Source: Clostridia bacterium
GTDB lineage: Bacteria; Bacillota; Clostridia; Christensenellales; DUVY01
Direction: 5' to 3'
Length of the DNA stretch: 41,935 bases
Assembly: GCA_036562685.1 (NCBI GenBank)
Contig: DATCJR010000127.1
Location: 1 to 41,935, forward strand
This document shows, piece after piece, positions 287-28,036 of this stretch. A program made the translations under genes and the position numbers. The notes under the pieces are model-generated. The model had not been told where the DNA came from. It was given only the letters and a program-made list of their open reading frames with translations, and searched no databases. Numbering within the stretch: the first letter of the stretch is position 1; every line of letters starts with the position of its first letter.

Positions 287-2803
287 ATGAAGCATTACAA
301 ATACTGTTTCCTTTTATTTTTATTTGTCTTAATTATTTTCCAAGGATGTACAAAAGAAGAAATAATAAATATTGGCTTATATGATCAGGAAAAAGTTTAT
401 TATTTGTGTATAAATAAAGAACAAGATTTTTCTTTGCCTTTACCCCAAAAAACAGGTTATACCTTTGAAGGATGGTTTTTTGATCAAAAGCTACAAAATA
501 AATGTACAGAAAATGAAATTTCTAATTTAAAATCGAAAAATGTCATTTTATATCCTAAATGGACACCAAACACATATAACATAACCATATGTTATGATGA
601 GGAAACCGAAAGAACAATTCAAGCTCAATTTGAAACTGAAATCAAATTAATAGATTATTTCTTTGTAAAACAGGGCTATGTTCTTTCAGGATGGAAAGTC
701 ACTGGTGTTGAAAAAACATTTAATATTAACGATGTTTTTAATATGCCTGCATATGACATATCTCTTTATCCTGTTATCTCAAAAAAAATGGTGAGTTTTC
801 AAACTAATGGTGGAGATACCATATCGCCTATTTGGTATAACGATTTGATACAAAACGGTTTACCCGTGCCTCAAAAGGAGCAATGTGTTTTTGAAGGATG
901 GTTTTTGGATAAAAATTTTAGCCGAGAATTTGATATCAAAGACGAACCTCAAAACCACATAACACTTTATGCAAAATGGCGAAATATAAATTATAATGTA
1001 TCATTTGAAACTAATGGCGGCAGCGTGATATCAACTGTATCTTATTATGAATTAAGAAAAGCTGGCGCTTTACCATTGCCTCAAAAATTAGGCTATGATT
1101 TTGAGGGCTGGTTTTTTGATGAAAACTATCAACAAAAGTTTGATATTAACATTGAGCCTAAAAATGATATAACATTGTATGCAAAATGGAAAGAAAAAAT
1201 CTATTCAATAACTTATATTGATAATGGCGGACAAGCTAATGAAGAAAGACCAAAAGAATTCACAATCAAATCACCCGAAATTAAACTGCCTGTGTTAAAA
1301 AAATCTGGATATAAATTCTTGGGATGGTTTGAAGCTGATAAAGAGTATCAGATAATTCCAAACGGTACTTCAAAAGATCTTGTACTTGAAGCTCGTTGGA
1401 CTGAAAGAAAACCTATTAAGATCGAAATAAACACTTTTCCTCAAAAGATGAATTATTTTTTAAATGAGCAGTTAGAATCAAAAGGCTTGACCATCGATGT
1501 TATATATGACAATGATGAAACTGAAATAATAGACGATATAAGCTGTTTAAAACTAAGCGGTTATGATTTTTCAAAAACAGGTTGGCAAATAATAATCATA
1601 AATTATCTAGGACTTACTACATCTTACCAAGTTTTTGTAACTACTGAAAGCATTATTAAGATTGAAGCAGTTATAGAAAAAAATGAATATATAGAAGGTC
1701 AAGAACTGGTGCTTGATGATGCGCTAATTTTGCTTCATTATAATAGTGGTAAGATTTCAAGTACACCTCTTATTTATCAATATTTGGCCGATTATGATAT
1801 GAACAAAATTGGACGCCACAAGATTATAGTTTTATATGATAATTTCAGTACGTATTTTGAAATTAATATCAAGCCTAAAAGCTTGCAATGTATAGAAGCA
1901 AGTGGATATAAAGCGCATTATGAATATATGGAAGAGCTTTCAAATGACGGTATACTTCATCTAATATATGACAATGAAACTGTTGAAGAAATTCCTTTAA
2001 AAAATGCAATAATTTCAGGGTATGATTGTTTAAAATCCGGAGAACAAAAATTATTAGTGCAATATATTATGAATTCTAATATTTTTACATGTAATATTAA
2101 AGTCTATGTTTCAGACCCGCCGAAAACAGTATCAAACTTGACAATAATACAGTTACCCAAAACAGAATATGAATTGGGCGAAAATTTGGATGTTTCTAAT
2201 GGGTTGTTAAAAGTCAATTTTCATTTTTATCCAGGATATGAAGAAATTATTTCTTTAACTCTTGATATGGTGTCTGGTTTTGATTCTAGCTGTGTTCAGA
2301 ATTTACAACTCAAGGTTGAATATCAGGGTGTTTATTGTTTTTATAATGTCAGCATAATAGATTCTTGGAGTGAAATCTTTAGTTTTATAGAAACTCAAGA
2401 TGGACAGGGGTATATTATAAAAGAATTTAAGGCTAAAAAAGAAAAGCAAATATCTATTCCATCAATGTATAATGGTAAGCCTGTAAAAGAAATCGGCAGT
2501 GATGCTTTTTATAATACAATACTTGAGCATGTTGTTATCCCAAGTAATATAGTTAAAATATATAGTTTTGCATTTTACTCAAATGATTTTTTAACCGAAA
2601 TCATTATTGCTGACCGTCAAACAGAACTTGATCTAGAATTAATGGCTTTTGAAGATTCATTTAGAACAGGTGTTTATATTGAATGTGATTTGGACAAACT
2701 GAATTATGGTGATTTTAAGTATTATAGTTTGACGTTTTATACTTATGATCAGAATGATTATAGTGAACTTCAGTCTTATGGTTTCAATGCTGTAAAACTA
2801 TAA
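287..2803 (+). CDS. surface lipoprotein with InlB B-repeats, Ig-like domains and BspA-type LRR tail
   Basis: No enzymatic role is suggested; the architecture fits a cell-surface adhesion or glycan-contact protein. Residues 1-20 form a hydrophobic lipoprotein signal ending in FQG before Cys21, a loose lipobox. Five InlB/Listeria-Bacteroides-type repeats follow at about 38-92, 96-163, 168-231, 237-301 and 307-371, with the hallmark GYxFEGWF and LYAKW motifs; the second is divergent. Four Ig-like (Big_3-type) domains then span about 376-691, with EYxxGExL motifs. Residues about 700-790 resemble a BspA-type leucine-rich repeat (IPSxxNGKPVKEIGSDAF). There is no LPxTG motif, so anchoring would be by lipid. 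The ATG has a strong site, GGGGGAGG, 3 nt upstream. It is a single-gene unit between its own promoter and a terminator shared with groEL. Domain classes are solid; the function is inferred. Confidence 0.85.
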   Translation: MKHYKYCFLLFLFVLIIFQGCTKEEIINIGLYDQEKVYYLCINKEQDFSLPLPQKTGYTFEGWFFDQKLQNKCTENEISNLKSKNVILYPKWTPNTYNITICYDEETERTIQAQFETEIKLIDYFFVKQGYVLSGWKVTGVEKTFNINDVFNMPAYDISLYPVISKKMVSFQTNGGDTISPIWYNDLIQNGLPVPQKEQCVFEGWFLDKNFSREFDIKDEPQNHITLYAKWRNINYNVSFETNGGSVISTVSYYELRKAGALPLPQKLGYDFEGWFFDENYQQKFDINIEPKNDITLYAKWKEKIYSITYIDNGGQANEERPKEFTIKSPEIKLPVLKKSGYKFLGWFEADKEYQIIPNGTSKDLVLEARWTERKPIKIEINTFPQKMNYFLNEQLESKGLTIDVIYDNDETEIIDDISCLKLSGYDFSKTGWQIIIINYLGLTTSYQVFVTTESIIKIEAVIEKNEYIEGQELVLDDALILLHYNSGKISSTPLIYQYLADYDMNKIGRHKIIVLYDNFSTYFEINIKPKSLQCIEASGYKAHYEYMEELSNDGILHLIYDNETVEEIPLKNAIISGYDCLKSGEQKLLVQYIMNSNIFTCNIKVYVSDPPKTVSNLTIIQLPKTEYELGENLDVSNGLLKVNFHFYPGYEEIISLTLDMVSGFDSSCVQNLQLKVEYQGVYCFYNVSIIDSWSEIFSFIETQDGQGYIIKEFKAKKEKQISIPSMYNGKPVKEIGSDAFYNTILEHVVIPSNIVKIYSFAFYSNDFLTEIIIADRQTELDLELMAFEDSFRTGVYIECDLDKLNYGDFKYYSLTFYTYDQNDYSELQSYGFNAVKL

Positions 2804-13727: not shown

Positions 13728-15044
13728 TTAATTAAACTTAGGCAACCAATTACCATGGGCTTCTATAAGGTCGTCGCAAAGGTTACGAATATCGTCAATT
13801 GATAATTCAGAAGATGTATGCGGATCAAGCATTGCTGCCATGTAGATATAATCTTTTTTCAAAGTTCTAGCAGCTTCTATTGTCATCAACTGAACATTGA
13901 TGTTAGTTCTATTGATTGCGGCGCATTGTTCAGGTAGATCGCCTACAAAGCACGGGTTAAGCTTATTTCTATCAACCATTACAGGAACTTCTACGCATGC
14001 ATTAGAAGGAAGATTGGTTATAAGTCCAGTATTGAGTACATTTCCGTGCATTTTGTAAGGATTGTCTGTTACTACGGCCTTGATAATATTAGCAGCATAT
14101 TCATGGCTCTTATGGTGTTCAATGTTTTTGTTATTGACAAGGTCGTGTTTTCTTGTTTCCCAATCTTTTATTTGATTTATACAACGTCTAGGATATTCGT
14201 CAAGCGGAATATTAAAACGGTCAATGAGTTCGGGATATTTTGATTTTATAAAATAAGGAAGATATTCTGAAGTATGTTCTGATGATTCGGTTATATAATA
14301 TCCAAACTGCTTCATCATTTCTAGTCTTACTAGGTCATACTTTATATTGGGATGTTTTTCTACGCCTTCAAGTGCTCTTTTCTTGATTTCAGGATATAGG
14401 TCATTACCGTTAAGATCTTCAATTTTTAATAGCCATGCTTGATGGTTAATTCCAGCAATTTGCCATTTTACTTTTCCTTTGTATTCACTCATATCGAGAT
14501 TGTCCAAAAGAACATCTGCGCAAACTTGTACGCTGTGGCAAAGTCCGACTGTTTGAATTTTGGTGTATCTTTGGATATAGCCGCTTAGTATTGCCATAGG
14601 ATTGGTATAGTTTAGGAAAAGTACATTAGGACAAACTTCTTCCATTACATCAGTAAAATTTTTCATGACAGGTATAGTTCTTAATGCTCTAAAAATACCG
14701 CCTATTCCTAAAGTATCTGCAATAGTTTGTCTAAGTCCATATTTTTTTGGAATTTCAAAATCGGTAACCGTGCAAGGCTCATATCCACCAACTTGAATAG
14801 CGTTTATCGCAAAATCAGCATTTTTGAGTGAATCTTTTAAGTTAAGATATTTTGTTATTACAATATCTTTTCTGCCTGAGTTGCTCAAAATATTGTTGAG
14901 CATGCTGTAAGATTCATTCAAACGGTTTTCGTCAATATCATAGAGTGCAAGTTCAGCATCTTGTATTTCTGGGGTTAAAATGATATCGCCAAGAACGTTT
15001 TTTGAGAATACTGTGCTGCCTGCACCCAAAAAAGTTATTTTCAC
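13728..15044 (-). CDS. glycoside hydrolase family 4, alpha-galactosidase-type
   Basis: GH4 enzymes hydrolyse glycosides by an NAD- and Mn-dependent oxidation/elimination route in the cytoplasm. The 438-residue protein has the N-terminal Rossmann motif ITFLGAGSTVFSKN with Asp36 (YDID) placed to bind NAD. The metal-site motifs are Cys169-His170 in GLCHSVQ and Asn200-His201 in AGINHQAW. These motifs fit the alpha-galactosidase/alpha-glucuronidase side of GH4 rather than 6-phospho-glycosidases. The start is GTG at 15044 with GGAGG 10 nt upstream; the ATG closer to GGAGG is out of frame. It diverges from an AraC regulator, which probably controls it, and its predicted leader carries three direct repeats. 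There is no transporter beside it. Confidence 0.92.
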   Translation of the reverse strand: MKITFLGAGSTVFSKNVLGDIILTPEIQDAELALYDIDENRLNESYSMLNNILSNSGRKDIVITKYLNLKDSLKNADFAINAIQVGGYEPCTVTDFEIPKKYGLRQTIADTLGIGGIFRALRTIPVMKNFTDVMEEVCPNVLFLNYTNPMAILSGYIQRYTKIQTVGLCHSVQVCADVLLDNLDMSEYKGKVKWQIAGINHQAWLLKIEDLNGNDLYPEIKKRALEGVEKHPNIKYDLVRLEMMKQFGYYITESSEHTSEYLPYFIKSKYPELIDRFNIPLDEYPRRCINQIKDWETRKHDLVNNKNIEHHKSHEYAANIIKAVVTDNPYKMHGNVLNTGLITNLPSNACVEVPVMVDRNKLNPCFVGDLPEQCAAINRTNINVQLMTIEAARTLKKDYIYMAAMLDPHTSSELSIDDIRNLCDDLIEAHGNWLPKFN

Positions 15045-15063
15045 TTTTTAACATCCTCCATTT

Positions 15064-15112
15064 AATCTTTTGTATTTTAGAATCTTTTGTATTTCTAAAG
15101 AATCTTTTGTAT
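15064..15112. repeat. three direct copies of AATCTTTTGTAT in the GH4 leader
   Basis: Identical 12-bp copies lie at 15064-15075, 15081-15092 and 15101-15112, spaced 17 and 20 bp start to start. On the minus strand a TATAAT at 15124-15119 puts the GH4 start site at about 15112, so the repeats would lie in the transcribed leader as ATACAAAAGATT, ahead of the GGAGG site. They may be operators for the divergent AraC protein or an RNA element. Confidence 0.6.
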
Positions 15113-15281
15113 GTCTAAATTATAATATTTTAGAATGAGCTTTAATAGTTGATTTGTTTCAAAAATTTGTCTTTTTGTTGCAAAAATTAATAAATAAATC
15201 GGATTTTATAATATAATTTTTATAAAATGTTGTCTAGGTGTCTTTACATGTGTTAATATGGATTGAGATGGGAGTGTTTTT

Positions 15282-16115
15282 ATGGATTTAGAATTTGCAA
15301 GTTATACCAACAAGTCAATGTCTAATAATGAGATATATGTTGTTGAAACAGGGTATGAACGATGTCAGCCAAGACATTCTTTTGGTCCATATAAGCGTGG
15401 TTATTTTTTGATACATTTTGTCATGCAAGGCAAAGGTAAATATTATTTGCATGGAAAAGAATATGTGGTCGAAAAAGACTGTGGATTTATAATATTCCCT
15501 GATGACATCACAACATATACAGCAGACAAAGACAATCCTTGGTATTATTATTGGGTGGGTTTTAACGGAAGAAAAGCATCAGAAATAGTTTTAAGTTGCG
15601 GTTTAACAAAAGATAATCCAGTTTTCAAATATGATAAGGACGAATTTTTAAAAGAGCAAATTAAGCTTTTGTTTCATCAATCAAAAAAGATGAACTTTAA
15701 TAATCTAACAATGATTGGATATCTTTACTTGTTTTTATCATCTTTATACAGACAGCATGAATTGCTTAGCAAGGATAGAACGCAAGATTATATTGATAGG
15801 GCGTGCATGTATATACAAAATAATTTTCAAGATGATATTACAGTAGATATGATTGCAAAATATCTTTTTATTAACAGGACTTATCTTTTTAGAATTTTCA
15901 AAGCTCGTCTTAATATGTCTCCAAGCGAATATCTTCAAGATTATAGACTAAAACAAGCTTGCTATATGCTCGCAAGAAGCTCGCACAGCATTACAGACAT
16001 AGCGTTTTACTGCGGTTTTAACAGCGTATCGCTCTTTTGCAAGGCATTCAAAAAGAAATATAAGATATCTGCGATGAATTATAGAAAGAATGCTTTAATA
16101 TATGAAGAAGTATAA
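15282..16115 (+). CDS. AraC-family transcriptional regulator
   Basis: The 277-residue protein has an N-terminal cupin-like sensor domain (about 15-105, with FLIHFVMQGKGKYYLHGKEY and DNPWYYYWVGFNG) and a C-terminal AraC/XylS double helix-turn-helix (about 175-275). The HTH motifs are DITVDMIAKYLFINRTYLFR and SITDIAFYCGFNSVSLFCKA. The sensor class is typical of regulators of glycoside utilisation. It diverges from the GH4 gene across 237 nt, and the three repeats there are natural candidate sites, so local activation by a galactoside-type inducer is the best guess. The ATG follows GGGAG by about 8 nt. No terminator follows, but the first satD palindrome begins 14 nt after the stop. Confidence 0.93.
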   Translation: MDLEFASYTNKSMSNNEIYVVETGYERCQPRHSFGPYKRGYFLIHFVMQGKGKYYLHGKEYVVEKDCGFIIFPDDITTYTADKDNPWYYYWVGFNGRKASEIVLSCGLTKDNPVFKYDKDEFLKEQIKLLFHQSKKMNFNNLTMIGYLYLFLSSLYRQHELLSKDRTQDYIDRACMYIQNNFQDDITVDMIAKYLFINRTYLFRIFKARLNMSPSEYLQDYRLKQACYMLARSSHSITDIAFYCGFNSVSLFCKAFKKKYKISAMNYRKNALIYEEV

Positions 16116-21106: not shown

Positions 21107-21140
21107 AAAAAGCCTTCAAAATTTTTGAAGGCTTTTTTTT
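21107..21140. terminator. bidirectional terminator between ferritin-like gene and the ArsR-type regulator
   Basis: AAAAAGCCTTCAAA (21107-21120) pairs with TTTGAAGGCTTTTT (21124-21137) around a 3-nt loop, with A and T runs on the two flanks. Confidence 0.92.
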
Positions 21141-21161: not shown

Positions 21162-22097
21162 TTATTTTGCATTTCCGTTTTGATTTATATTTTCATAAAC
21201 CAGTCTGATTTTTATTCCATCAGGATAATCTCCAAAAGATTTTCCAAACAATGTAACTCCGCCTTTATTTGCGGCTTTGGCTGGTACTGATATTCTAAAA
21301 GTTATGTTTGAATTATGATATATTCCCAAATCTTCAATAGTTGTACTTCCTATGGGCAATCCGTCAATAAATGTTCCCTCTTGGTTTATGATAAGCATTT
21401 TGTATCTTCCATACTGTCCCAGATTTTTAAACCACCAGCTGGGAGAAACCAATCCCGGACGGTCATTAAATTCGCCAGGAGAAGTCCAGTATCCAAGTTC
21501 TATGCCGTTAACGCTAAAATATATATCGGACGGATATTGAGAAGAAAATCCAGGTGCTTCACTTGCGATTTCAAAAGTCAATTGCAATTCAATTGCTTTT
21601 TGGTTGGGCTTTAGCGCATTAGGGATTTTGTATTCTACAAATCCTTCTGTAAACCAAAGAAGCCCTGCATTAAATCTTTCAGGATAAGAAAAATACCTAG
21701 GATCGTCAAGTTCGCCTATAATAGAATCTTTGGTAACAATTCCGCATGTAGGCGTGATCTGATAATCAGAATATTGACCAACATCCACTTCAAAATCATA
21801 TGCATTGGTCTGAGCTTCATTGCCCGTTATATCAATAATTATTTTATCAACAGCCAAGGAGCATAGTTTTTGAGAACCACGTACCCCTGAAGATGTAGTT
21901 ACAGTAATAATGCCGGCATCTGATAGCTTTTTGATGTGAGCAGTAATAGCACCATTTGTTAACCCTAATATCTTAGCCAGATTATCGAGATTCATTGTTT
22001 TATTTTTTAAAAGCTGATTTACTATTTCAATTCTTACGTCTGAACTTAAAGCACTGCATATAGGTAAACAATCATAAATATTTTTAATGTTTTTCAT
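21162..22097 (-). CDS. ArsR-type winged-helix regulator with a large C-terminal domain
   Basis: Residues about 10-90 form a winged helix-turn-helix of the ArsR type (SALSSDVRIEIVNQLLKN, then LAKILGLTNGAITAHIKKLS, then a wing). Residues about 100-311 form a separate beta-rich domain with many aromatic and Gly residues (GYWTSPGEFND, SPSWWFKNLGQYGRYK); no ArsR metal-site Cys pattern is visible. The extra domain looks like a carbohydrate- or ligand-binding sandwich, but I do not recognise its family. The gene diverges from araB, so control of the arabinose operon is the best guess, in place of the LacI/GntR-type AraR of Bacillus. Its promoter is well defined: TTGCAA and TATACT on the minus strand, with a 17-nt spacer. 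Confidence 0.82.
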   Translation of the reverse strand: MKNIKNIYDCLPICSALSSDVRIEIVNQLLKNKTMNLDNLAKILGLTNGAITAHIKKLSDAGIITVTTSSGVRGSQKLCSLAVDKIIIDITGNEAQTNAYDFEVDVGQYSDYQITPTCGIVTKDSIIGELDDPRYFSYPERFNAGLLWFTEGFVEYKIPNALKPNQKAIELQLTFEIASEAPGFSSQYPSDIYFSVNGIELGYWTSPGEFNDRPGLVSPSWWFKNLGQYGRYKMLIINQEGTFIDGLPIGSTTIEDLGIYHNSNITFRISVPAKAANKGGVTLFGKSFGDYPDGIKIRLVYENINQNGNAK

Positions 22098-22128
22098 TAT
22101 GTCTTTCCTAAACTTTATTTTATTAATA

Positions 22129-22157
22129 AGTATAATAAATTAAAATGGTAATTGCAA
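22129..22157 (-). promoter_or_regulatory. promoter of the ArsR-type regulator
   Basis: On the minus strand TTGCAA (22157-22152), a 17-nt spacer and TATACT (22134-22129) form a near-consensus promoter. AGGAAAG follows as ribosome binding site before the ATG at 22097. Confidence 0.65.
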
Positions 22158-22176
22158 GCTAAATCACCTATATTAT

Positions 22177-22306
22177 TTTAATTTTATGTGAAATTAAATT
22201 ATATATTACAAGATTATATTTTATATATTGACTTAGTAATTTTATAATGATAAAATAAAGTCAATAATTCAATTTTTTATTTAATATTTTAATTTAAATT
22301 AAAATA
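22177..22306. promoter_or_regulatory. araB promoter region with repeated palindromes
   Basis: The araB promoter is TTGACT (22228-22233), 17 nt, TAAAAT (22251-22256). Three inverted repeats surround it. At 22177-22198, TTTAATTT and AAATTAAA are separated by 6 nt. At 22285-22306 a perfect 22-bp palindrome uses the same half-sites with no spacer. At 22226-22234 and 22258-22266, TATTGACTT and AAGTCAATA flank the core promoter, 32 bp apart. These are candidate operators for the divergent regulator, though the AT-richness raises the chance of coincidence. Confidence 0.55.
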
Positions 22307-22323
22307 ATAGATTGGAGGGAGAA

Positions 22324-23997
22324 ATGAGCAAATACAGCATTGGAGTTGATTTTGGAACGCTTAGCGGAAGAGCTGTTTTGGTTGATTTAAACTCAGGCGA
22401 AGAAGTCGCAGTTTCTGTTTTTGAATATCCTCACAAAGTAATGGATGAATACTTGCCAGACGGCAAAACTAAGTTAGGCGTTGACTGGGCTTTACAGCAT
22501 CCGCAGGATTATTTGGATGTGTTATCAAACACAATTCCTGATGTTTTAAAAACAGCGAAGGTTTGTGCTGATGATGTAGTAGGTATAGGAATTGATTTTA
22601 CAGCTTGTACTATTTTGCCCACAGATAGATCTGGTAAGCCTTTGTGTTTTTATGACGAACTTAAAAACGAGCCGCACGCTTATGTGAAACTTTGGAAACA
22701 TCATGCTGCACAAGAGCAGGCCAACCAGCTTAATAAAATCGCAAAAGAACGCGGAGAAAAGTTTTTGGATTATTATGGCGGAAAAATAAGCAGCGAATGG
22801 CTTGTTCCTAAGGTTATGCAAATAGCACAAGAAACGCCTCATATATACAAAAAAGCTGACAGAATTATGGAAGCTACTGACTGGATAATAATGATGCTTA
22901 CAGGAAAAGAAATGCGAAACAGCTGTACTGCCGGATATAAGGCATTGTGGCATAAGCATAACGGGTATCCGAGCAAAGAGTTTTATAAAGCACTCAATCC
23001 ATTATTGGAAGATCTCGTAGATACAAAATTATCAAGAGATATTTATCCCATAGGCACAAAAGCAGGCGAAATTAATGATTTTGGAGCTAAACTTACAGGA
23101 CTAAGAAAAGGAACTGCTGTGGCTGTCGGCAATGTGGATGCGCATGTGGCTGTTCCGGCAGCTGGTATAACAGAAGCAGGCAAAATGCTTATGATTATGG
23201 GAACATCAACATGTCACATATTGTTGGGAGAAGAAGAACATATAGTCCCTGGTATGTGCGGAGTGGTAGAAGACGGAGTTTTGCCTGGATTTATGGGCTA
23301 TGAAGCAGGACAATCATGTGTAGGCGATCATTTTGACTGGTTTGTAAAAAATTGCGTTTCTTACTCTTATTATGAACAGGCAAAGCAGCAAAATCTTAAC
23401 ATACATGACTTTTTGACTAAAAAAGCTCAAAAGCTAAAGGTTGGTGAAAGCGGATTATTGGCGCTTGACTGGTGGAACGGAAACCGTTCTGTTCTGGTTG
23501 ATGCGGATTTGACTGGATTGCTTTTAGGTGCAACGCTTTTGACCAAACCGGAAGAAATATATAGAGCATTAATAGAAGCTACCGCTTACGGAACAAGACT
23601 GATTATTGAGACATTTAGAGAAAACGGCGTTCCTATTAACGAACTCTATGCCGCAGGCGGAATAGTATCAAAAAATCCTATGATGATGCAGATTTATTCT
23701 GATGTTACCAATATGGAAATTAAGATAAGCGGGTCACCGCAAGCTCCTGCATTAGGAAGCGCTATTTTTGGCGCAGTTGCAGCAGGTTCTGCACGCGGCG
23801 GATTTGATAATATTTCGGATGCGGTCAAAGTTATGGCTAAGGTCAGAAAAGACCTTGTGTATAGGCCTATTCCTCAAAATGTAGAAGTTTATAACAAATT
23901 ATTCGCCGAATACAAGACCTTGCATGATTATTTTGGACGCGGCGAAAACGATGTTATGAAAAGATTAAAAGCAATTAAGGAAGCATCAAAATGTTAG
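22324..23997 (+). CDS. araB: L-ribulokinase
   Basis: AraB phosphorylates L-ribulose with ATP in L-arabinose breakdown. The 557-residue FGGY-family kinase has [18 protein letters not shown] at the N terminus (phosphate-binding DFGT), the substrate-region [25 protein letters not shown] near 265, [11 protein letters not shown] in the second domain, and [20 protein letters not shown] plus [19 protein letters not shown]. An in-frame TTG at 22312 overlaps the GGAGGGA ribosome binding site, so the ATG at 22324 is chosen. It is the first gene of araB-araD-araA-GH127; its final bases overlap araD by 7 nt. The promoter upstream is flanked by palindromes and faces the ArsR-type regulator. Confidence 0.96.
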
Positions 23998-24686
23998 AAA
24001 ATCTTAAAAAAGAAGTTTGGGAACAAAATCTTAATCTTGTCAAATATAATCTTGTTATTTTCACTTGGGGAAATGTTTCTGCTATTGATAGACAGTCAGG
24101 TGTTATCGCAATAAAACCTAGCGGCGTAGAATATGACCGTCTTAAAGTGGAAGATATCGTTTTGGTCGATTTAAACGGTAAGGTTGTTGAAGGCGCTCTC
24201 AATCCTTCTTCGGACACACCTACTCATATTGAATTATACAAAAACTTCCCAAGTATAGGCGGAGTTGTGCACACTCATTCAACATATGCGACTGCATGGG
24301 CTCAAGCCGGCAGACCGATAAAGTGCTACGGAACAACGCATGCAGATTATTTTTATGGCGATGTTCCGTGTACACGAGCATTGACTGAAGAAGAAATCAA
24401 GACCGATTACGAAAAAAACACAGGCAAAGTAATAGTCCAGACATTTAAAAACATTGACCCCTTAAGCACCCCTGCAGTCATTGTAAAATCTCATGGACCT
24501 TTTACTTTTGGAAAAACCGCAAAAGACGCGGTTTTTAATGCCGCTGTTTTGGAAGAGGTAGCCAAAATGGCATTTTTGAGTGAAAACATTCAGCCGTCGA
24601 TAACACCTGCGGATAGTTTTTTGATAGAAAAGCACTATTTGAGAAAGCATGGTAAAAACGCTTATTACGGACAGACAAAAAAATAA
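23991..24686 (+). CDS. araD: L-ribulose-5-phosphate 4-epimerase
   Basis: AraD epimerises L-ribulose 5-phosphate to D-xylulose 5-phosphate, linking arabinose to the pentose phosphate pathway. The 231-residue class II aldolase/epimerase shows [20 protein letters not shown] (phosphate binding), SSDTPTH with the conserved Asp, and the Zn ligands His94 and His96 ([14 protein letters not shown]) and His168 (VKSHGPF). The GTTHADYF motif is also typical of the epimerase rather than fuculose aldolase. The start overlaps the end of araB (ATGTTAG), so translation is coupled. Confidence 0.97.
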
Positions 24687-24718
24687 ATCAAAAATCGTCA
24701 ATAAGGAGAATGATTGAT

Positions 24719-26197
24719 ATGAAGAATAAAGTTGTTTATTTTGTGGTAGGAAGCCAGCATTTGTATGGCGAAGAGGTTTTAAAACAAGTTGCAGAGCATG
24801 GTCGTGAAATCGCGATGTTTTTTAATTCTCAAAAAGATAATCCTGTCACTATAAAATATTATGATACCGTCAAAACTCCGGAAGAAATAACCGCAATGGC
24901 ACGCTCAGTAAATTCGGATCCTGAATGCATAGGCATAATAACATGGATGCATACCTTTAGTCCCGCTAAGATGTGGATAAATGGACTTAAGATTTTGAAT
25001 AAGCCTATGCTTCATATTAATACACAATTTAATGAATGTATTCCTTATGATACTATCGATATGGATTTTATGAATCTCAATCAATCCGCACATGGAGACA
25101 GAGAGTTTGGACATATAGTTTCAAGATTGAGAATAAGACGAAAAGTTGTGGCAGGTTATTATAAAGACGAAGAAGTATGCAAAAAAATCTTTACATGGTG
25201 TAGAGCCGCCGCCGCTGCCGATAAAAGCAATACTTTAAAAGTGGCAAGACTAGGTGATAATATGCGTGAAGTCGCAGTTACAGAGGGCGACAAGGTTGAA
25301 GCGCAGACTAGATTTGGCTGGTCTGTAAACGGCTATGGCATTGGCGATTTTTTGAATTATGTCAATAAAGTAAGTCCAAAAGAGACTGACAGAGTGATTG
25401 AAAATTATAAAGAGCAATATATTTTGGAAAAAGATGTTGATATCGATGCTGTAAAAGTTCAGGCTAAATATGAAATAGCATTAAAACGCTTTTTAAATGA
25501 AGGCGGTTTTAGTGCATTTACTACCACTTTTGAAAATCTGCACGGACTTGAACAGCTTCCCGGACTTGCATGCCAGACGCTAATGAAAGAAGGATATGGA
25601 TTTGGCGCAGAGGGTGATTGGAAAACTTCGGCTATGACGCATTTGTTAAAATATATGGCTCAAGGGTTAGACGGTGGAACATCTTTTATGGAAGATTATA
25701 CATATCATCTAGAAAAAGGAAAAGAAGCTATTTTGGGTGCACATATGCTTGAGGTTTGTCCTAGTATCGCAGACAGCAAGCCTTCGCTGGAAGTTCATCC
25801 TTTGTCAATAGGCGGAAAAGAGCCTCCTGCAAGACTTGTTTTTGAGGGCAAAACAGGAAATGCGCTTTTGGTAACCTTGATAGACTTAGGTGACCGCTTT
25901 AGAATGATTGTAAATCAGGCAGAAATAATAAAGCCTGCATCTATGCCTAAGCTGCCCGTTGCAAGAGTATTATGGAGACCTATGCCTGATCTTAAGACTA
26001 GCGCTGCTGCATGGATTATGGCAGGCGGAGCGCATCACAGCGTTTTAACTACACAGCTGGATTTAGAGCATATAAGAGATTTTGCAAGAATTATGAATGT
26101 TGAATTGGTAGTAATCGATAAAAATACTGATTTGGATAAGCTGGAAAACGATTTGTTGATATCTGATTTTGTTTGGAAGAACAAAAGCATTTATTAA
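24719..26197 (+). CDS. araA: L-arabinose isomerase
   Basis: AraA isomerises L-arabinose to L-ribulose, the first step of the pathway, using Mn2+. The 492 residues match the family length and include VVGSQHLYGEEVL at the N terminus, IITWMHTFSPAKMWI, HTQF-type HINTQFNECIPY, NLNQSAHGDREFGH, the metal-site Glu in GFGAEGDWKT and MEDYTYHLE, LEVCPS and the late His in AGGAHHSV. AAGGAG at 24702-24707 is too close to the ATG at 24710, so the ATG at 24719 is favoured. It is third in the operon, 32 nt after araD. Confidence 0.97.
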   Translation: MKNKVVYFVVGSQHLYGEEVLKQVAEHGREIAMFFNSQKDNPVTIKYYDTVKTPEEITAMARSVNSDPECIGIITWMHTFSPAKMWINGLKILNKPMLHINTQFNECIPYDTIDMDFMNLNQSAHGDREFGHIVSRLRIRRKVVAGYYKDEEVCKKIFTWCRAAAAADKSNTLKVARLGDNMREVAVTEGDKVEAQTRFGWSVNGYGIGDFLNYVNKVSPKETDRVIENYKEQYILEKDVDIDAVKVQAKYEIALKRFLNEGGFSAFTTTFENLHGLEQLPGLACQTLMKEGYGFGAEGDWKTSAMTHLLKYMAQGLDGGTSFMEDYTYHLEKGKEAILGAHMLEVCPSIADSKPSLEVHPLSIGGKEPPARLVFEGKTGNALLVTLIDLGDRFRMIVNQAEIIKPASMPKLPVARVLWRPMPDLKTSAAAWIMAGGAHHSVLTTQLDLEHIRDFARIMNVELVVIDKNTDLDKLENDLLISDFVWKNKSIY

Positions 26198-26215: not shown

Positions 26216-28036
26216 ATGCAAAGAGTTGATTTAAGTAAGGTTAAGATAACTGAAGGCTTTTTTAAAGACCGCCAGAAAATAAATATCGAAAGTATAAAAA
26301 GCATTCATAAACGCTTTTTAGAAACTGGCAGATTTGAGGCATTGAAGCAAATATGGAAAGAGGGGCAGCCCAACAAGCCGCATATCTTTTTTGATTCTGA
26401 TGTGGCAAAATGGATAGAAAGTGTTGCTTATGTTTTGATTGACCATAGAGATTCAGAATTAGAAAAGCTGTGCGATGGTTATATTGACGAAATACAAGCT
26501 CATCAGCAAAGCGATGGATATTTTAACAGCTATTTTTCTCATATAGAGCCTGACAAAAAATGGAAGTTAAGAACAGAACATGAATTGTATTGTGCTGGAC
26601 ATCTTATCGAGGCTGCAGTTGTGTATTATCAGGCAACAGGCAAAGATAAATTCTTGAATATTGTCAAAAAACTTGCCGACCATATAGAAAAAGTGTTCAA
26701 AATAGAACACACCGCGGCTTTTGTTACGCCAGGACATGAAGAAATAGAATTAGCTCTTTATAAGCTGTATAAAACAACTGATGAAAAAAGATATCTTGAT
26801 CTTGCCAAGTTCTTTATAGACCAAAGAGGACAAAAACAGGAAGAGGTTTATCAAACGGTAGACAATCGTTATGACCAATCTTATATTCCTGTAAGGCAGC
26901 AAAAAACAGCCGAAGGTCATAGTGTAAGAGCATTATATTTGTACTCTGCAATGGCAGACATTGCAAAAGAATGCAACGATCAAGAGCTTTTGAATGCATG
27001 CAAGGCTATATACGAAAACATCACAACTAAGCGTATGTATATTACTGGCGGCGTTGGCTCATCGCATTACGGAGAGGCTTTTACTTATGATTATGACCTA
27101 CCCAATATAAGTGCTTATGCAGAAACGTGCGCTGCTATCGCATTGATAATGTTTTGTGACCGCATGAATAATATTGAGGCTGATTCAAAATATGCTGATA
27201 CCATAGAAAGAGCATTATATAACAATGTCTTAGCGGGAGTGTCTTTAGACGGAAAATCATTTTTTTATGAAAATCCTTTGGAAGCTGATGTCCAAAAATT
27301 TGATTTTAATCAGACTTGCAAGGTAAAGCAGCATATGCCTATTTTGAGACGCCAAGAAGTTTTTGATTGTTCGTGCTGTCCGCCAAACTTGACCAGAACT
27401 ATTGCATCTATCGGCGGTTTGATTTTCAAATATGATGAAGAGAGTATCTTTATCAATCAATATATAAGCTCAACTGCCGATATCAACGGTGTTTTTGTGG
27501 ATATAAAATCCCAAATGCCATGGGAAGGCAAGATTAATATTAACATCAAGCCTAAAAAACCAATTAAGGTGTGTTTGCGTATTCCGTATTGGACAACAGG
27601 ATATAAGGTTTTTGTTAACAAAAAATCATACAAAGGTGCTGTTAAGAATGGGTATTTAGAAATAGGTTTGTCAGATGAAACTAATATAAAAATTGATTTT
27701 GAAATGTCTGTAAGATTGGTGTATGCGCATAATAAGGTCAGAGCTGACAGCGGAAGAGCCGCAGTAACCAGAGGACCGATTGTATATGCCGCAGAAGGAA
27801 TAGACAATCCAAATATTGATTTAAATGATGTTAAACTTGATCTATCAAGAAAACCTAAACTAGAAGAAGGAAGTATAGCTAAATATAATATTATATTGCC
27901 CGCTTACAAGAGAGCGCAAACAGAGCTGTATTCATATCAAAAACCAAAATATCAAAAAATAGATTTAAAATTGCTGCCATATTTTATGTGGGCAAATAGA
28001 GAAAAAAGCGATATGCAGGTGTGGTTTTTATACTAA
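26216..28036 (+). CDS. beta-L-arabinofuranosidase, glycoside hydrolase family 127
   Basis: GH127 enzymes release L-arabinose from beta-L-arabinofuranosyl disaccharides such as those of plant hydroxyproline-rich glycoproteins, using a Zn-bound cysteine nucleophile. The 606-residue protein has an (alpha/alpha)6-barrel and C-terminal beta domains. The expected Zn ligands are visible: Glu303 and Cys305 in YAETCAAIA, and Cys387-Cys388 in CSCCPPNLTR, one of which is the nucleophile. There is no signal peptide, so it should act on imported oligosaccharides in the cytoplasm. It follows araA by 18 nt with GGTAGGTG as ribosome binding site, tying it to the arabinose operon. A terminator follows immediately. 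Confidence 0.93.
   Translation: MQRVDLSKVKITEGFFKDRQKINIESIKSIHKRFLETGRFEALKQIWKEGQPNKPHIFFDSDVAKWIESVAYVLIDHRDSELEKLCDGYIDEIQAHQQSDGYFNSYFSHIEPDKKWKLRTEHELYCAGHLIEAAVVYYQATGKDKFLNIVKKLADHIEKVFKIEHTAAFVTPGHEEIELALYKLYKTTDEKRYLDLAKFFIDQRGQKQEEVYQTVDNRYDQSYIPVRQQKTAEGHSVRALYLYSAMADIAKECNDQELLNACKAIYENITTKRMYITGGVGSSHYGEAFTYDYDLPNISAYAETCAAIALIMFCDRMNNIEADSKYADTIERALYNNVLAGVSLDGKSFFYENPLEADVQKFDFNQTCKVKQHMPILRRQEVFDCSCCPPNLTRTIASIGGLIFKYDEESIFINQYISSTADINGVFVDIKSQMPWEGKININIKPKKPIKVCLRIPYWTTGYKVFVNKKSYKGAVKNGYLEIGLSDETNIKIDFEMSVRLVYAHNKVRADSGRAAVTRGPIVYAAEGIDNPNIDLNDVKLDLSRKPKLEEGSIAKYNIILPAYKRAQTELYSYQKPKYQKIDLKLLPYFMWANREKSDMQVWFLY

Follow-up and report, generated by a model that had tools for sequence, protein, structure and literature searches.

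The ArsR-type protein encoded in the window (the whole stretch of 41,935 nucleotides analyzed here, from a Clostridia bacterium) is best filed, on sequence comparison, as an ArbA-like regulator and a close relative of ArbA. It is probably an autoregulated repressor of araB-araD-araA-GH127 that is relieved when L-arabinose or an arabinofuranosyl oligosaccharide binds its beta-sandwich sensor domain. Proteins of the ArsR type are generally interpreted as metal sensors. The original prediction suggested that this one might represent a sugar-sensing class of winged-helix regulator. Gene neighborhoods across phyla support the sugar-sensing part of that idea, while sugar binding itself is predicted and the link with sugar-binding folds is weak; nor is the class wholly new, ArbA having been published in 2021 (PMC8579813). 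The regulator, the operon that it faces, and an adjacent hairpin are laid out as follows.

21162..22097, minus strand: ArbA-like regulator, 311 aa, with a winged helix at about residues 13-80 and a beta-sandwich domain at about 100-311
21162..21797, minus strand: C-terminal beta-sandwich domain of the regulator (residues 101-311), a putative sugar sensor
22324..23997, plus strand: araB, L-ribulokinase (FGGY kinase)
23991..24686, plus strand: araD, L-ribulose-5-phosphate 4-epimerase (class II aldolase)
24710..26197, plus strand: araA, L-arabinose isomerase
26216..28036, plus strand: GH127 beta-L-arabinofuranosidase
21108..21140, no strand assigned: A/T-flanked hairpin, GCCTTCAAAA...TTTTTGAAGGC, read directly from the sequence

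The regulator open reading frame was confirmed, with an ATG start preceded by AGGAAAG as the ribosome-binding site. Residues 17 to 66 match HTH_5 (arsR; 29.9 bits against a cut-off of 22), HTH_20 (29.3 against 27), and HTH_24 above the Pfam cut-offs. ArsR/SmtB proteins are among the best solved structures for the family profile, over the winged helix only, and the winged helix is ArsR-like by predicted fold as well as by sequence. The expected extension of about 210 residues rich in aromatics and glycine is evident in the composition of residues 100 to 311 (212 aa), which are 15% F/W/Y and 10% G, compared with 1% and 6% in residues 1 to 99. The predicted position facing an arabinose operon also held, with the FGGY ribulokinase, AraD-type aldolase, L-arabinose isomerase, and GH127 all confirmed. 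For araB, the ATG at 22324, which lies behind GGAGGG, is a more likely start than the TTG at 22312. The hairpin at 21108 to 21140 is likely a two-way terminator between a ferritin-like gene and the regulator; a consensus scan did not report it. Elsewhere in the window, a GH4 glycosidase gene and a divergent gene for an AraC-type regulator (13728-16115) make up a second local sugar-control unit, and positions 287-2803 (plus strand) encode a protein of 838 aa that resembles a surface lipoprotein and contains Listeria-Bacteroides, Ig-like, and BspA-type leucine-rich repeats. In L155, from the same genus (regulator 90% identical), the regulator directly faces GH127, and in L156, also from the same genus (86% identical), it faces araB-araD-araA with two GH127 genes. 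The operon beside the regulator is thus reshuffled in these two species.

The C-terminal domain (about residues 100 to 311) has no sequence match in Pfam, NCBIfam, or the PDB, and no sugar-binding site was identifiable in it by sequence. Because the full-length fold model (pTM of 0.54) was too poor for this domain, the domain was folded alone from four sequences, which gave a mostly strand model with a pTM of 0.75. Comparison of the predicted structure with carbohydrate-binding folds, as the original prediction had proposed, gave a mixed answer: proteins of the CBM type are among the top PDB matches, but the similarity is weak, as no listed match exceeds a TM-score of 0.41 (E of ~0.001), short of the 0.5 taken as the mark of a fold match. 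The leading match is a CBM6 protein (CBM6E), and further matches include Cry toxin domains, the glycosidases GH115 and Xyn30D, a CBM27, the cellulose-synthase protein BcsB, and malectin; a viral fold library returned mostly unnamed phage proteins at low TM-scores. These matches are consistent with a carbohydrate-binding jelly roll without proving one. A match to an unrelated enzyme family would have counted against the original prediction, and the sequence searches gave none.

Conservation within the family spans both domains. This bears on whether the regulator might control the ara operon with the beta-sandwich serving only as a dimerization or protein-contact module, the signal then being a phosphorylated intermediate or another protein. 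The weak fold matches and the absence of a sugar-binding site identifiable by sequence would suit such a module, but many polar and aromatic residues of the C-terminal domain are near-invariant (R141, W148, E155, Y156, E176, E180, D191, N197, W221, W222, and Q228), a pattern that suits a ligand site better than a dimer surface. Also against it, a 710-aa protein (L101:187-2319, minus strand) contains a related domain; no winged helix and no Pfam match were found in this protein, and its start resembles a lipoprotein signal, hinting that domains of this type may have a role independent of DNA binding. We therefore consider a contact module unlikely. Returning to the sugar-sensor reading, we put at about even the chances that the domain represents a class of intracellular sugar sensor not described before, in which a CBM-like beta-sandwich is joined to an ArsR-type winged helix in several phyla, mainly for L-arabinofuranosyl oligosaccharides and with a GH2-linked branch for other sugars.

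Homologues, mostly full length, were found in 46 of 391 genomes in the class sample, 24 of 398 in the phylum sample, and 31 of 297 in the order sample, as well as on 260 plasmid records, mostly from Rhizobium and Sinorhizobium but also from Enterococcus and Deinococcus. Full-length members thus come from Bacillota and from plasmids of Alphaproteobacteria, Deinococcota, and enterococci. Some large genomes hold four to seven copies, and no relative was found on viral contigs. Family records are annotated mostly as plain ArsR family or even as metalloregulator.

The original prediction also expected homologues to be linked to sugar genes, and arabinofuranosidase and oligosaccharide-uptake genes do recur beside them across phyla. 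An arabinofuranosidase (GH51/43/127) or ara gene lies within 4 kb of the regulator at 32 of 76 nonredundant loci, and any scored sugar gene at 53 of the 76. GH51 genes are densest in the kilobase nearest the regulator, at 10.1 per 100 kb compared with 0 to 3.1 beyond, and this fall-off provides an internal control against chance. The link also follows relatedness: GH51 was present within 4 kb at 22 of 44 loci with at least 38% identity to the window protein but at only 1 of 32 below 38%, where GH2 replaces it (11 of 32 loci), and the GH51 label is clustered in the tree (only 3 of 500 shuffles were as low). Within the family to which the window protein belongs (f1), the regulator at L158 is flanked by araD-araA and, on its opposite side, by GH51; araA is present at L159. 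On plasmids, the regulator is found with an alpha-N-arabinofuranosidase and an ABC transporter in Rhizobium laguerreae and Sinorhizobium meliloti, adjoins sugar ABC genes in Deinococcus aetherius, and adjoins GH43 and an oligosaccharide transporter in Enterococcus raffinosus. The sugar-sensor reading of the window protein is thus well supported by genomics.

No scored sugar gene was present within 4 kb for 23 of the 77 tree rows. L175, L177, L181, and L187 form a well-supported clade of order-level relatives with no scored sugar gene nearby. An Enterococcus faecalis plasmid homologue (L195:7980-8870) is an exception that adjoins nadE and a nicotinate phosphoribosyltransferase gene rather than sugar genes, and the 28 to 29% identical homologues at L078 and L079 share a conserved neighborhood that is headed by an M23 peptidase/G5 protein and is apparently unrelated to sugars.

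A 24-bp palindrome, TTATTTTA-N8-TAAAATAA, first read by eye, recurs with fixed spacing upstream of family regulators. Together with the predicted promoters, its copies between the regulator and araB are arranged as follows.

22115..22138, no strand assigned: predicted operator O1, TTATTTTA-TTAATAAG-TATAATAA, 1 mismatch, overlapping the -10 element of the regulator's predicted promoter
22129..22157, minus strand: predicted regulator promoter, TTGCAA-17-TATACT
22173..22196, no strand assigned: weaker predicted operator O2, TTATTTTA-ATTTTATG-TGAAATTA, 2 mismatches
22228..22256, plus strand: predicted araB promoter, TTGACT-17-TAAAAT, with the same arrangement seen by eye in L155 and L156
22284..22307, no strand assigned: predicted operator O3, ATATTTTA-ATTTAAAT-TAAAATAA, 1 mismatch, past the araB promoter and ahead of the araB start codon

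Since the palindrome was drawn from the same upstream regions in which it was counted, we tested it against spacer and scramble controls. Among 77 upstream regions, the exact palindrome was present in 4 at a spacer of 8 and in none at any of 16 other spacers; with at most one mismatch, there were 8 at a spacer of 8 and 8 in all 16 other spacers together. Scrambled half-sites were found in 0.1 region on average, compared with 5 for the real palindrome. The choice of palindrome drew on the genome of the window organism only through the regulator/araB gap. In that 1.8-Mb genome, just three places match with at most one mismatch, two of them within the 214-bp gap, and none of 5,000 shuffles of the gap held two such sites. 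The half-sites consist of A and T only, and at up to two mismatches the genome holds 27 palindrome sites compared with 31 for a reversed control pattern. Because the two-mismatch level is background genome-wide, a site at C92:4015-4038 (locus L229), just upstream of a gene whose 858-aa product carries an arabinofuranosidase C-terminal domain, ranks as a two-mismatch candidate only for a possible second regulon member.

Exact palindromes occur in three searched Caldicellulosiruptor genomes, at one place each in two and at two places in the third, and all adjoin the regulator gene, as does the single exact palindrome in genome G721. Loci with good sites mostly share similar recognition-helix wording, (T/S)NGA(I/L/V)T.H(I/M)KKL. 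Among the nearest relatives, a site resembling O2 is kept at the same position in L155, and the operator copies in L156 are degenerate, with three mismatches at best; the weaker sites in these nearest relatives are the main doubt.

With O1 over the regulator's -10 element and O3 between the araB promoter and start codon, the layout fits an autoregulated repressor. We infer that the regulator dimerizes, that it represses and does not activate, and which ligand relieves the repression, as follows. Without inducer, a dimer of the regulator would occupy the palindromes at 22115-22138 and 22284-22307, and probably that at 22173-22196, and would block both its own promoter and that of araB-araD-araA-GH127. 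The inducer, on entering the cell, would be L-arabinose or, as the likelier choice, a short oligosaccharide of L-arabinofuranosyl units; upon its binding to the beta-sandwich, the regulator would leave the DNA and the operon would be expressed. Activation of the ara operon could be imagined from O1 and O2, which also lie upstream of the araB promoter, but it is a poor fit to O3, downstream of that promoter, and to the overlap of O1 with the regulator's own -10 element. It also runs against the Caldicellulosiruptor ArsR-family counterpart, which was read as a repressor from where its sites lie with respect to mapped transcription starts (PMC8579813), and we judge an activator to be quite improbable.

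That counterpart, ArbA of Caldicellulosiruptor bescii, was the first member of the ArsR family for which control of sugar use was predicted, and this computational prediction placed three sites between arbA and abfA (GH51), in a region shared with an AraR site (Rodionov et al. 2021, PMC8579813). In our set, genome G565 is C. bescii DSM 6725, as its two small contigs equal the plasmids of that strain. It encodes a single family member, 51.5% identical to the window protein over the full length and divergent from a GH51 gene, which is how ArbA was described in print, and the two proteins fall in the same supported tree clade of 30 rows, inside which the branching order is not fixed. Both ArbA and the window protein are divergent from arabinose-sugar genes, abfA in one case and araB-araD-araA-GH127 in the other. 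The 24-bp palindrome and its spacer are common to the window and C. bescii gaps, as found here and not taken from the published motif, and the three candidate sites in the window gap parallel the three reported for ArbA (PMC8579813). In contrast to the ArbA region, the window gap contains no AraR consensus within two mismatches, and an AraR operator there was rejected. The genome of the window organism yielded a single GntR/LacI hybrid, and it adjoins genes read as mannan-degrading. AraR itself, a GntR helix joined to a LacI-type sugar-binding domain, agrees with the window protein in the role proposed for the latter and in its place opposite arabinose genes, but Pfam finds neither part in the window protein and the operator is different. 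Archaeal TrmB sugar sensors likewise fuse a winged helix to a separate sensor domain and would be alike in action if our model is right; the window protein has only a subthreshold match to the TrmB helix (E of 0.054) and none to its sensor domain. ArsR-family genes are known, from annotation alone, in ara clusters (arabinose or arabinan) of Geobacillus 56T3 (PMC4428132) and, as "araRS," of Lactobacillus rossiae (PMC4855831).

The window protein has the winged-helix DNA-binding domain of ArsR/SmtB repressors (CzrA, CadC, and SmtB) but differs in its roughly 210 extra C-terminal residues and in having no metal site that we could find. Its cysteines are at 10, 14, 79, and 118 and its histidines at 54 and 261 only, in agreement with the original prediction that a metal-site Cys pattern is lacking; that prediction was silent on Cys79 and Cys118, which are conserved in at least 90% of the family. 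Although this conservation and a winged helix whose best matches are proteins of the ArsR/SmtB fold, HlyU and CzrA among them, would suit an ordinary metal-sensing repressor next to the ara genes by chance, we rejected metal sensing, which is highly improbable given that neither the alpha3 CxC nor the alpha5 His/Asp metal site is present, that the best NCBIfam metalloregulator model (NF033788) scores 35.7 bits, below its cut-off of 55, and that the sugar-gene link recurs in several phyla.

We found no bench test of any member of this widespread family in the literature, and the operator is now defined well enough for direct testing. A multiphylum family whose sensor domain lacks a Pfam model appears to control the use of arabinose polymers, and the regulator and its operator could provide a sugar-inducible switch for use in anaerobes.
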